64,000 bases of DNA. Source: Planctomycetes bacterium syqfu. GTDB lineage: Bacteria > Planctomycetota > Phycisphaerae > Phycisphaerales > Phycisphaeraceae. Every line of letters starts with the position of its first letter. Position 1 is the first letter of the stretch. The notes beneath the pieces were generated by a model. The model had not been told where the DNA came from. It saw only the letters and a program-made list of their open reading frames with translations, and ran no database searches. Shown in pieces: positions 60,367 through 64,000 of the stretch. The translations under genes and the position numbers were made by a program. Location: positions 3,224,001 to 3,288,000 of the forward strand of contig CP087563.1 in NCBI GenBank assembly GCA_020974905.1. Direction: 5' to 3'.

Positions 60367-60400
60367 TTTCGGATTGCACTTCGAGCCGCCTGCGGCGTCA

Positions 60401-60456
60401 GATTTCGGATTTCGGATTTCGGATTTCGGATTTCGGATTTCGGATTTCGGATTTCG
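60401..60456. repeat. heptamer tandem repeat (GATTTCG x 8)
   Basis: Eight perfect copies of GATTTCG in a row, preceded by an isolated copy near 60365. It lies directly next to palindrome copy C and upstream of nothing coding. Confidence 0.9.
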
Positions 60457-60467
60457 TCCGAATCATA

Positions 60468-60489
60468 AAACCGCTTGCGGTTTAGCGCG
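60468..60489. repeat. AAACCGCTTGCGGTTT palindromic repeat, copy C
   Basis: Reads AAACCGCTTGCGGTTTAGCG then CG, identical to the core of copy D at 61338. It follows the GATTTCG tandem and lies about 100 bases after the AraC gene. Confidence 0.8.
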
Positions 60490-60541
60490 ACTTACGCTTT
60501 GACAACCATTCACACAATTGACTTCCAAACTGCTTGGATTT

Positions 60542-60626
60542 CGTCATTCCCGCGCAGGCGGGAATCCAGTGGCATTCTGTTGACGCTTGCAGATGTCACT
60601 GGACTCCCGCCTGCGCGGGAGTGACG
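60542..60626. repeat. GTCATTCCCGC palindromic repeat, copy 5
   Basis: Starts CGTCATTCCCGCGCAGGCGG and ends CCTGCGCGGGAGTGACG. Together with the heptamer and copy C, it fills the gap between the AraC gene and the ACT gene (60367-60773). Confidence 0.9.
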
Positions 60627-60713
60627 GAGGCCAGACACGACATCGCATGATTTGATTGTGTTGTAATTTTGCGTGACTTGCGCTTTTGAACTTCCATTTC
60701 ACGAACAAAAAAA

Positions 60714-61401: not shown

Positions 61402-62418
61402 TCACATCGAACGATCAATCGCTGCAGCAACGCGGGTGCAACTCTTGATGATGTCGTTAAGTGCCTCTGGTGTGATCGACTGGGCGCCGTCGGTCCAGGC
61501 ATGTTCGGGGTCCGGGTGCATCTCAATGGCCAACGCGTCACAACCGGCAGCCACCGAAGCGCGAGCCATGTCCGCAACCAGACGTGCGTGTCCCGTGCCA
61601 TGTGACGGATCACTGACGATCGGCAGATGTGATCGCTGATGCAATTCTGGAATCGCAGACAAGCTGAGCGTGTTACGCGTGTGATCTTCGAATGTACGGA
61701 TACCGCGTTCGCAGAGAATCACATTGGGATTGCCGGCTGAGAGAATGTACTCAGCAGCCTGAAGCAGTTCGTCGATGGTCATTGCCATACCACGCTTAAG
61801 CAACACCGGCTTGGGCTGTTTGCCAACGGCTTCGAGGAGTTTGTAGTTGGCAGCGTTGCGCGTCCCGATCTGCAGGCAGTCGGCATATTCGCTGACCACA
61901 TCCACGTCATCGACGGAGAGCACTTCGGTGACGATGGCCAAACCCGTTTCATCGCGAGCAGCAGCAAGCATCTTCAAGCCGTCAACGCCATAACCCTGGA
62001 AACTGTAGGGATTGGTACGCGGCTTGAACGCACCACCACGCAGGGCATGTCCGCCAGCAGCACGCACGGCCTTGGCGCTGGTGATGATTTGTTCTTCACT
62101 TTCAACCGAGCAGGGCCCCGCGATCACGGGTACGTGCTGACCGCCAATGACACATTCGTCACTGATACGGATCACCGAACGCTCGGACTTGGTTTCGACA
62201 GCTGAGAGTTTATACGGCGCAAGAATCGGTACGACGCGGTCCACGCCGGGCAGGTTCTCCAGAACCGTGCTGTCTTTCTTGCGGTCATCGCCAATGACGG
62301 CGACGACGGTCAGTTCGCTACCTTGAATTGGATGGTCTGTGAGTCCCATTTCTCGGATCAACTCCTTCACGTGGTTGATCTGATCCTCGGTCGCGCTGGC
62401 TTTCATGACTACGATCAT
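61402..62418 (-). CDS. aroF: 3-deoxy-7-phosphoheptulonate (DAHP) synthase, type I-beta
   Basis: A 338-residue enzyme that joins phosphoenolpyruvate and erythrose 4-phosphate, the first committed step to Phe, Tyr and Trp. Residues 1-70 form the ferredoxin-like N-terminal domain of this subclass ([20 protein letters not shown]). The catalytic barrel has [57 protein letters not shown] and [13 protein letters not shown]. The ribosome site AGGAGAC precedes the ATG. Its 5' leader carries a leader peptide and terminator that predict attenuation by aromatic amino acids. It ends before its own terminator. Confidence 0.97.
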
Positions 62419-62474
62419 GACTTGTCTCCTAAGTCGGTGTTTTCAAACGGTGGCGGGTGAATGCCGTATAAAAC

Positions 62475-62505
62475 AAAAAAACCCCGACGGTGTCCGCGTC
62501 GGGGT
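62475..62505 (-). terminator. attenuator terminator in the aroF leader
   Basis: On the minus strand, ACCCCGACG (62505-62497) pairs perfectly with CGTCGGGGT (62489-62481), loop CGGACAC, followed by TTTTTTG. It lies between the leader peptide stop and the aroF ATG, 57 bases before the ATG, so transcripts that end here contain no aroF. No gene lies upstream on this strand except the leader peptide. Confidence 0.93.
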
Positions 62506-62562
62506 CAGATTCTTGGTTCAATGCTTTATTGATTTAGAACGAGCCCCTCGCGGTATGTCCGC
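62494..62562 (-). promoter_or_regulatory. aroF attenuator: regions 1, 2 and 3
   Basis: Minus strand, 5' to 3'. Region 1 GCGG (62562-62559) can pair with CCGC of region 2 (62553-62550) around ACATA. Region 2 as CCGCG-A-GGGG (62553-62544) can instead pair with region 3, CCCC-GA-CGCGG (62504-62494), nine pairs with a small internal loop. Region 3 is also the first half of the terminator. These three pairings are mutually exclusive, as in trp- or pheA-type attenuators. A ribosome stalled at Phe 14 would cover region 1 and free region 2 to block the terminator. Confidence 0.82.
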
Positions 62563-62608
62563 TGGTAAACCAGAAATAACCAAAAAAGCCGTAGGTGCTG
62601 TTCTTCAT
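62534..62608 (-). CDS. aroF leader peptide rich in aromatic residues
   Basis: A 24-codon frame, ATG at 62608-62606 and TAA at 62536-62534. Residues 1-10 are MKNSTYGFFG and 11-20 are YFWFTSGHTA, followed by RGSF. Seven of the nine residues from 6 to 14 are Phe, Tyr or Trp. It is predicted to be a regulatory peptide: scarcity of charged tRNA for aromatic residues should stall the ribosome before region 1 of the attenuator. There is no strong ribosome site, and the predicted transcription start is only about five bases upstream of the ATG, so the mRNA might be translated almost without a leader. A longer in-frame opening toward 62917 overlaps ubiX and is rejected. Confidence 0.85.
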   Translation of the reverse strand: MKNSTYGFFGYFWFTSGHTARGSF

Positions 62609-62619
62609 AGCGGGGATAA

Positions 62620-62647
62620 GTATTACGAGATACTGTGAACTTGTCAA
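62620..62647 (-). promoter_or_regulatory. promoter of the aroF leader
   Basis: On the minus strand, TTGACA (62647-62642), 16-base spacer, TAATAC (62625-62620). A second candidate -10, TATAAT, lies farther upstream (62666-62661), with a weak -35 TTCGTC at 62689-62684. Either would start transcription before the leader peptide. Confidence 0.7.
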
Positions 62648-62668
62648 GTGTGATGTTTTGATTATAAA
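62641..62668 (+). promoter_or_regulatory. divergent promoter toward ubiX
   Basis: Plus strand TTGTCA (62641-62646), 16-base spacer, TATAAA (62663-62668), giving a start near 62676 and about 137 bases of 5' leader before ubiX. It overlaps the -35 of the aroF promoter on the other strand, so the two may compete. Confidence 0.6.
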
Positions 62669-62812
62669 CCCCAAACGTCCGATGACGAAGTATTTTTGAA
62701 TTTTGTTGTGGTTCTGTTTTTGATATTCAGCTGCATGGCTTGCGACTCGCGTTATCAGAACACGGCGGGAAAGCGCATCGCAAGCGACGCGGCTAAATAC
62801 TACAATACGCAG

Positions 62813-63412
62813 ATGTCTGAACCCAATCGCATCATTGTCGGAATCAGCGGTGCCAGTGGCGCGCTTTATTCTCAACGGCTGGTTCGCTGTCTGCTGGCAG
62901 CGGGAACGCAGGTCCATCTTGTGGTCTCACCTTTGGGCCAACGTCTGCTTCATGATGAGTTGGGTTACGAGTCACTGGACCTTGAGCAGCTTGCAGGCGA
63001 CGAAGATGTCAACGGCATTACGCTGCATCAATATCGCGATGTCGGGGCGTCCATTGCCAGCGGGTCTTTTCAGACCAGGGGGATGGTGATCTGCCCGTGT
63101 TCGAGTAACTCGCTGTCTGCCGTTGCCACCGGTGCGTCGAACAATCTCATGCATCGTGCTGCACAGGTGGTTCTCAAGGAACGGCGTCGGTTGATTCTGC
63201 TTCATCGCGAGATGCCGTTGTCGTTGGTGGACATTCGGAACATGCAAGCAGCCACCGAAGGCGGTGCGATCATCGCGCCCGCCAATCCGGGTTTTTACCT
63301 CATGCCACAGTCCCTTGATGACATCGTTGACTTTGTGGTTGCGCGACTTCTGGATTTACTTCAAGTCGAACATACGCTCGGTCAACGCTGGAAGGAAGAA
63401 TCCCCGTCTTGA
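62813..63412 (+). CDS. ubiX: UbiX-family flavin prenyltransferase
   Basis: A 199-residue protein starting at 62813. It has the flavin-binding IIVGISGASGALYSQRL, the PCSSNSLSAVATGASNNLMH region and VLKERRRLILLHREMPLSLV, with Arg and Glu of the active site. UbiX adds a dimethylallyl group to FMN to make the cofactor of UbiD-type decarboxylases. In bacteria using the futalosine pathway for menaquinone, a UbiX-like (MqnM) and UbiD-like pair do this step. The next gene overlaps by four bases and encodes a prenyltransferase of the same route. An upstream frame with a hydrophobic stretch (62696) is likely not used. Confidence 0.93.
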   Translation: MSEPNRIIVGISGASGALYSQRLVRCLLAAGTQVHLVVSPLGQRLLHDELGYESLDLEQLAGDEDVNGITLHQYRDVGASIASGSFQTRGMVICPCSSNSLSAVATGASNNLMHRAAQVVLKERRRLILLHREMPLSLVDIRNMQAATEGGAIIAPANPGFYLMPQSLDDIVDFVVARLLDLLQVEHTLGQRWKEESPS

Positions 63413-64000
63413 ATACTGCCTCCGACCAACCCGCCCCGCCATCCAAACTTTTGACCCTGGCAAGTGACATCAAACTCAGTCACTCGATCTTCGCCCTGCC
63501 GTTTGCGGTGTTGGGTGCTTATCTTGCAGCAGCGGACAAAGGACAATTGCTGCATGAGGATTGGGTGAGTCTGCTGTTGATTCTGCTGTGCATGTTTTTC
63601 GCGCGCACCGTTGCGATGACGATCAATCGGTTAGCCGATCACAAGATCGACATCCTCAACCCACGGACCAAAGGTCGGGCGATTCCCAGTGGTCGGCTGA
63701 GTTTCAGTTATGTGATGCTGGTGACGATTCTGTGCAGCGTCTGCTTTGTCCTCAGTGCAAGCGGGTTCTGGTTTTTGCGAGAGAATTTTTGGCCGGTGCT
63801 GCTCAGCCCCATCGTGTTGATCTGGCTCTCAGCGTATAGCTTCATGAAAAGATTCACTGCGTTGTGCCACATTTTCCTGGGCTCGGCACTGGCGATCAGT
63901 CCACTGGCAGCAGGCATTGCCATCAACCCTGAGTCCATTGGTCACCCCACGCTGTGGCTGCTTGCAGGCATGGTGCTCTGCTGGGTCGCAGGCTTTGATG
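63409..64000 (+). CDS. UbiA-family prenyltransferase (MqnP-like), N-terminal part
   Basis: The gene is cut by the window end after 197 codons. It probably starts with the TTG at 63409, overlapping the ubiX stop (TTGA), with GGAAGGAAG upstream. It opens SKLLTLASDIKLSHSIFALP and has the Asp-rich prenyl diphosphate site INRLADHKIDILNPRT followed by KGRAIPSG, which is typical of UbiA/MqnP. At least five membrane helices are seen. It attaches a polyprenyl tail to an aromatic acid in quinone synthesis. With UbiX next door, the futalosine type of menaquinone synthesis is likely, though ubiquinone synthesis cannot be excluded from the fragment alone. Confidence 0.85.
   Translation, partial: MNTASDQPAPPSKLLTLASDIKLSHSIFALPFAVLGAYLAAADKGQLLHEDWVSLLLILLCMFFARTVAMTINRLADHKIDILNPRTKGRAIPSGRLSFSYVMLVTILCSVCFVLSASGFWFLRENFWPVLLSPIVLIWLSAYSFMKRFTALCHIFLGSALAISPLAAGIAINPESIGHPTLWLLAGMVLCWVAGFD

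Follow-up and report, generated by a model that had tools for sequence, protein, structure and literature searches.

The window, as the whole stretch of 64,000 nucleotides analysed here is called, carries on its minus strand between 62647 and 61402 an ordered series of elements: a sigma-70-like promoter, an open reading frame of 24 codons, a predicted terminator hairpin with a T-run, a Shine-Dalgarno sequence and aroF. The aroF gene (62418-61402; Shine-Dalgarno AGGAG at 62430-62426) encodes a type I DAHP synthase of 338 aa with a ferredoxin-like regulatory domain. Its product matches NF006421 (E 5e-138) and TIGR01361, each above the cut-off, as well as PF18152 (the ferredoxin-like domain); among solved structures, its nearest chains are 4grs, 1rzm and 1vr6 (E about 1e-93). 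The genome has 7.38 Mb and a tool-estimated completeness of 95.8%; its one further match to DAHP_synth_1 is a KDO8P synthase, and a search for type II DAHP synthases gave none, so that aroF is the apparent sole entry to the shikimate pathway, and a single DAHP synthase appears to feed all three aromatic pathways in this genome. Downstream of aroF and on the same strand lies the gene of a two-ACT-domain protein (61301-60774; weakly GcvR-like), with a terminator-like hairpin (61353-61338) between the two genes. Further on, tandem copies of ATTTCGG (60402-60456) precede a CGTCATTCCCGCGCAGGCGGGAATCCAGTGG-type repeat present as two copies that face each other (60400-60630 region); a nearly identical repeat stands ahead of a different gene of this genome (L167). 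On the other side, the intergenic region of the aroF promoter is shared with divergent plus-strand genes, one encoding a UbiX-family flavin prenyltransferase (62813-63409) and the next (63409-64000) a protein which, from its appearance, we take to be UbiA-like.

The open reading frame upstream of aroF (62608-62534, minus strand) encodes the aromatic-rich peptide MKNSTYGFFGYFWFTSGHTARGSF, followed by a stop codon, and contains Y6, F8, F9, Y11, F12, W13 and F14, exactly as a preliminary description of this DNA had listed them for a 24-codon minus-strand leader. The promoter consists of TTGACA (62647-62642), a 17 nt spacer and AATACT (62624-62619), leaving 10 nt between it and the leader ATG. About 40 nt upstream of this promoter lies another promoter-like match, TCGTCA-16-TATAAT (62688-62661, minus strand).

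Relatives of aroF were collected from 201 genomes of the order and a named genome collection. The closest survey set comprised 50 genomes of the window's own family (f1) and its sister family (f6) in which aroF was matched from residue 1 to at least residue 331, and the partial aroF genes of G154, G038 and G139 were left out of the upstream reading. An aromatic leader lies upstream of aroF in 43 of these 50 genomes, 42 of the leaders being distinct after removal of L003 as a near-duplicate of L001; also outside the 42 are L018, which has 77 nt of upstream sequence, and L056, whose leader has diverged. Five of the 50 genomes (G118, G085, G011, G088, and G031) have aroF without a leader, which indicates that the leader is dispensable, and in two of them, G118 and G085, a tRNA-Leu gene is located directly upstream of aroF. 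In the remaining f1/f6 genomes the contig ends too early (G151) or the leader has diverged (G097). All 42 leaders contain Phe, 38 contain Tyr and 37 Trp, with the three residues together in 34. When any short open reading frame in the last 340 nt before aroF was considered, the best count of Phe, Tyr and Trp within nine residues was six to eight in 37 of the 42 related loci, while among 210 shuffled upstream regions a count of five was reached in two and a count of six in none.

The position of the promoter is conserved together with the leader. A promoter-like pair matching at least 9 of 12 bases occurs within 70 nt upstream in 41 of the 42 aligned loci, as opposed to 2.4% of shuffles, and in 40 of them the -10 box ends 6-11 nt ahead of the leader ATG. 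A Shine-Dalgarno-like match of at least 5 of 6 bases precedes aroF in 31 of the 42 loci and the leader in 3. Because the -10 box lies close to the leader ATG and a Shine-Dalgarno sequence is mostly absent before the leaders, the transcript probably starts at the AUG or a few bases before it, and the aroF leader mRNA is probably leaderless or nearly so, with the leader translated from it.

Downstream of the aromatic codons, the window contains the complementary segments of a candidate attenuator. The preliminary description had proposed three mutually exclusive pairings, 1:2, 2:3 and 3:4. Region 2 (CCGCG-A-GGGG, 62553-62544), the 5' half of the putative antiterminator, lies within the last leader codons, and its start is 16 nt from that of the F14 codon. 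It is complementary to region 3 (CCCC-GA-CGCGG, 62504-62494), which is common to the antiterminator and to the predicted intrinsic terminator, a hairpin at 62506-62480 with a T-run to 62475. This hairpin was picked up by the terminator scan, and folding and covariation also point to it; the stretch 62473-62536 folds with a z-score of -4.2, which none of 200 shuffles equalled. The scan itself, however, reported 6 sites in 4 kb where shuffles gave 5.0, and the leader without region 4 (62500-62610) has a z-score of -0.76, with 39 of 200 shuffles as good; the window alone is therefore no proof of an alternative fold. Folding of the whole leader (z -2.4, 2 of 200 shuffles as good) was set aside, as it mixes competing structures.

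Comparison among relatives argues much more clearly for two of the three pairings. The 42 loci were aligned with MAFFT from the leader start to the T-run (alignment A1), with regions 2, 3 and 4 in register; a strict terminator script missed 7 of the 42 terminators and mis-called that of L106, but all are visible in A1. In the antiterminator 2:3, 82.1% of cells are paired and two-sided changes occur in 9 of 11 pairs; none of 500 shuffles scored as high on any of five measures, and slid controls reached at most 44.4% paired cells. For the terminator 3:4 the corresponding values are 90.4% and 7 of 11 pairs, with 1 of 500 shuffles matching one of the five measures. These shuffles ignore relatedness, for which only a count on the aroF protein tree corrects, and that roughly: it gives 12 pair-keeping double changes in the antiterminator and 12 in the terminator, as against 0, 0, 0 and 2 in a slid control run for the antiterminator alone. 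Cognate 2:3 duplexes have an energy of -20.45 kcal/mol compared to -17.72 kcal/mol when region 2 is swapped between loci (0 of 10,000 permutations; 1 of 42 region-3 anchors, that of L090, was misplaced). The comparison with relatives by which the preliminary description had proposed to check its claim thus finds the aromatic codons and both stems, 2:3 and 3:4, kept with compensatory changes, and leaves the claim standing. The third pairing fares differently. The segments GCGG (region 1, 62562-62559) and CCGC (62553-62550) exist in the window and could pair, but in the one fixed register tested in A1 the 1:2 helix has no two-sided change, and its 66.3% of paired cells was reached by 114 of 500 shuffles. 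Likewise, in the last 42 nt of the leader open reading frames (n=42) folding is on a par with shuffles (mean z -0.27, with 9 of the 42 below -1).

A covariance model built from A1 was run on 397 genomes of the class. It gave one strong match per genome (E < 1e-7) in 17 of them, each time ahead of aroF; every one of the 17 had also contributed to the model, which means that the search revealed no second copy and no new carrier. Thirteen loci with weak matches (E 0.002-0.1) were read, of which L136 and L130 look real, while the other 11 showed no amino acid gene preceded by an aromatic leader.

The spacing between the codons and the RNA is kept in most loci. Counted from the start of the last aromatic codon, region 2 lies 16 nt away in 27 of the 42, and the stop codon starts 8 nt beyond the last base of region 2 in 28 of the 42. 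If the ribosome extends some 12-14 nt past the start of its A-site codon, then at this spacing one on the last aromatic codon would leave region 2 free, while one at the stop codon would cover it. The following sequence of events may thus be envisaged: transcription would begin on the leader AUG or no more than a few bases from it, which would let a ribosome start on the leader at once. When charged Phe-, Tyr- or Trp-tRNA is short, the ribosome would stall in the aromatic run, the last codon of which lies 16 nt before region 2; region 2 would be exposed and pair with region 3, no terminator would form and aroF would be transcribed. When charged tRNAs are plentiful, the ribosome would move on to the stop codon, which lies shortly after region 2, and cover that region, the 3:4 pairing would form and transcription would stop before aroF. 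The stalled-ribosome logic claimed for this locus in the preliminary description is supported by the conserved aromatic codons, the covarying 2:3 and 3:4 pairings and the fixed spacing, and aroF is very probably controlled by a ribosome-mediated transcription attenuator. That the terminator ends merely 61 nt from the aroF ATG in the window would also suit a leader acting mainly on translation or mRNA decay, yet a covarying hairpin with a T-run stands directly before aroF and the aroF Shine-Dalgarno sequence lies outside the hairpins, and this alternative is very improbable.

Codon choice in the leaders differs from that in the aroF genes. Phe is encoded by TTT 132 times and by TTC 57 times in the leaders, whereas the aroF genes show the reverse preference (33 to 191). 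The last aligned aromatic column is Phe in 40 of the 42 loci, with TTT in 40 of 42, and Trp stands one codon ahead of it in 28. TTT could be kept to avoid RNA structure instead of slowing the ribosome.

Beyond f1 and f6, 73 new distinct loci were read upstream of aroF, and 24 passed a filter of at least five aromatic residues in nine. Family f11 accounts for 17 of these passes (18 loci read), f9 for 6 (9 loci) and the remaining 46 loci, 8 of them from f17, for one (L164), which was judged a chance occurrence. The f11 leaders read FGFWFxGYFYP, and the region 2 that goes with them, GCGTCCTGAG, is not that of f1/f6: it includes the TGA stop codon and pairs with CTCAGGACGC. The f11 antiterminator is 87.1% paired with covariation no greater than in shuffles; the terminator covaries, three of five measures being at 0 of 500 shuffles, and in the swap test 13 of 5000 permutations were as good. 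The last aromatic codon lies 18 nt from region 2 in 11 of 17 loci. Promoter matches of at least 9 of 12 bases were found in 12 of the 17 f11 loci, fewer in proportion than before aroF in f1/f6. Judging from the sequences, the predicted attenuator logic is kept in f11 with a different RNA. This bears on the notion that a constitutive terminator happens to follow a chance open reading frame, without regulatory reading by ribosomes. Terminator-like sites do arise by chance, as the scan of the window showed, but a chance frame would hardly have conserved aromatic codons with a reversed codon bias at a fixed spacing to a covarying antiterminator, nor would relatives in f11 keep the logic with another sequence, and of the explanations considered we regard this as the one with the least credibility.

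A narrower question is which of the amino acids is sensed. The codon content suggests that all three aromatic residues may be. It is possible, although we consider it doubtful, that the same attenuator answers mainly to Phe (perhaps Trp), with the Tyr codons as passengers; this is a sub-case of the attenuator reading and, for this reason, does not compete with it. The dominance of Phe in the last aligned aromatic column and the frequent Trp just before it point in this direction, as does the Phe-Tyr-Phe leader of Corynebacterium glutamicum, which responds when Phe, but not when Tyr, is limiting (PMC11802643). On the other hand, Tyr is found in nearly all f1/f6 leaders, the last aromatic codon of the f11 leaders is Tyr in 15 of 17, and one DAHP synthase apparently serves all three pathways.

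In f17 the arrangement is different again. In all 8 genomes read, aroF is preceded on its own strand by a serS-like gene (3 of the 8 are model-confirmed as serS, the rest being assigned by similar N-termini), with a gap between serS and aroF of 0 to about 470 nt as judged from coordinates. In 5 of the 8 loci (L295, L296, L297, L299, and L142) a leader and a terminator are present ahead of serS, and in four of these leaders several Ser codons stand amid the aromatic ones (SSFAYSFWFYWYRR, SSYYFWYSFS, SLYSYSSWFWYS and SLFSYYSWFWFS), while in the fifth, that of L142, a single Ser is found at the run. The remaining three genomes have a tRNA-Arg gene directly upstream of serS, and no leader was seen there. 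Where Ser codons are mixed with aromatic ones before serS-aroF, a single f17 leader would sense four amino acids.

Terminator/antiterminator pairs are likewise a feature of riboswitches, T-boxes and TRAP, and a ligand-binding, T-box or protein-bound (TRAP-like) leader that acts without translation of the open reading frame might therefore be considered. Amino acid leader families in Rfam include Trp_leader, Phe_leader and Leu_leader. At gathering score, no Rfam family was found in the whole window, and no leader family in six other loci either; in a permissive search of 62400-62700 the best weak match was to an unrelated sRNA (E 0.068), and the sole leader family reported was His_leader, on the other strand (E 6.9). 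In addition, conservation tracks the codons, and in four of the five leaders ahead of serS several Ser codons have joined the run, which makes such a leader highly unlikely.

Other leaders of this kind occur in the same genome. A Leu-rich leader, MKQQTTYSNIHSDSKDLLGLLLLSVRG with its stop codon, is located with a promoter and a terminator before leuA (G000:C1:6949806; locus L166, upstream of 1483), and an Ile-rich one, MNQSQTIIIASMIISTPQPR with its stop codon, with a terminator before the citramalate synthase gene cimA (TIGR00977; G000:C1:434676-434749, minus strand; loci L110, L168). For each gene, 30 of 46 matching genomes were read, and leaders picked by eye were present at 24 of 30 leuA and 22 of 30 cimA loci; an automatic count of Ile/Val/Leu open reading frames before cimA (30 of 30) was rejected as inflated. 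Promoter matches of at least 9 of 12 bases were found in 22 of 24 leuA and 12 of 22 cimA leaders, the latter, like those of f11, weaker than leuA and than aroF in f1/f6. The predicted leuA antiterminator (23 loci after L286 was dropped from the 24; L156 was trimmed by hand for alignment A4) overlaps the stop codon and is 87.6% paired; the covariation score and the paired cells are both at 0 of 500 shuffles, two-sided changes occur in 4 of 11 pairs, a value reached by 14 of 500 shuffles, and the swap test gave 0 of 5000. Taken by itself, the 2:3 duplex of leuA in this genome is no better than chance (156 of 1000 shuffles as good), and the leuA leader is accepted because of the family comparison. 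The cimA duplex of this genome alone was equalled by 1 of 1000 shuffles; in the cimA swap test 297 of 5000 permutations were as good, a weak result due in part to some 5' arms that the terminator finder had placed wrongly. CTT and CTA make up 74 of 161 Leu codons in the leuA leaders and 114 of 887 in the longest downstream frame. No end-product leader was seen in the 350 nt read upstream of trpE or of a second PF04715 protein, or in the about 260 nt read upstream of hisG. The match found in the literature for a leader before cimA concerns, in its accessible part, valine production.

Taken together, the comparative sequence evidence lends good support to the aroF switch as a candidate attenuator. 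Its logic is of the trp type; it pools the aromatic codons and probably starts leaderless, its antiterminators end near or at the stop codon, and the 1:2 hairpin is unsupported in the register tested. We lean, if only slightly, toward the wider view that leaderless ribosome attenuators may be clade-wide in the Phycisphaerae (aroF, leuA, cimA), that their control codons would follow the operon, with the f17 leader reading four amino acids for serS and aroF, and that the RNA half may have been replaced between families while spacing and logic were kept. Ribosome-mediated attenuation would thereby enter the Planctomycetota with strong comparative support. Since leader codons, RNA pairing and target operon vary independently, these loci would form a natural series of switches in which the rewiring of attenuators and the role of leaderless initiation can be asked about.

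In E. coli, trpL and pheL combine leader codons with a region 3 common to antiterminator and terminator, include a 1:2 hairpin in the mechanism and have a leader Shine-Dalgarno sequence. The planctomycete aroF leader shares the leader codons and the region 3 logic with them, but its 1:2 pairing is unsupported in the register tested and most of the related leaders are without a Shine-Dalgarno sequence. The preliminary description had framed the locus by the trp, pheA and his attenuators of Proteobacteria; the trp-type logic holds, but leader attenuation of a DAHP synthase gene is also known outside that phylum, in C. glutamicum. The attenuator there, formed by the aroR leader before aroF, is reportedly that of Neshat et al. 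2014. According to the accessible parts of two papers, its Phe-Tyr-Phe leader acts by ribosome stalling and responds to Phe, not to Tyr (PMC11802643; PMC4046766). The likeness, namely that a DAHP synthase gene follows a short aromatic leader frame on which a ribosome would stall, is in function only: C. glutamicum has two DAHP synthases, whereas in the planctomycete one was found, with a longer aromatic run, Trp in most relatives and another phylum as host. In Acholeplasma a predicted motif ahead of aroF, uORFC-13-1, combines a uORF containing Phe codons with a terminator and possible promoter elements (PMC8632094), but it is confined to Acholeplasma and environmental sequences, its U-runs encode at least one Phe and its structure is unlike that of the planctomycete leader (PMC8632094). 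In Streptomyces lividans the leader frames trpL1, leuL1 and ilvL are transcribed leaderless upstream of amino acid genes including leuA (PMC8079986); these leaders belong to Actinobacteria, several are without a clear terminator, and aroF goes unmentioned in the main text of that paper (PMC8079986). The preliminary description had known of no such leader in this phylum, and none described for planctomycetes appeared in the accessible text of the open-access literature searched, a scope outside which most subscription papers lie. Set beside these systems, the phylum, the pooling of Phe, Tyr and Trp codons and the repertoire of leaders appear to be new.
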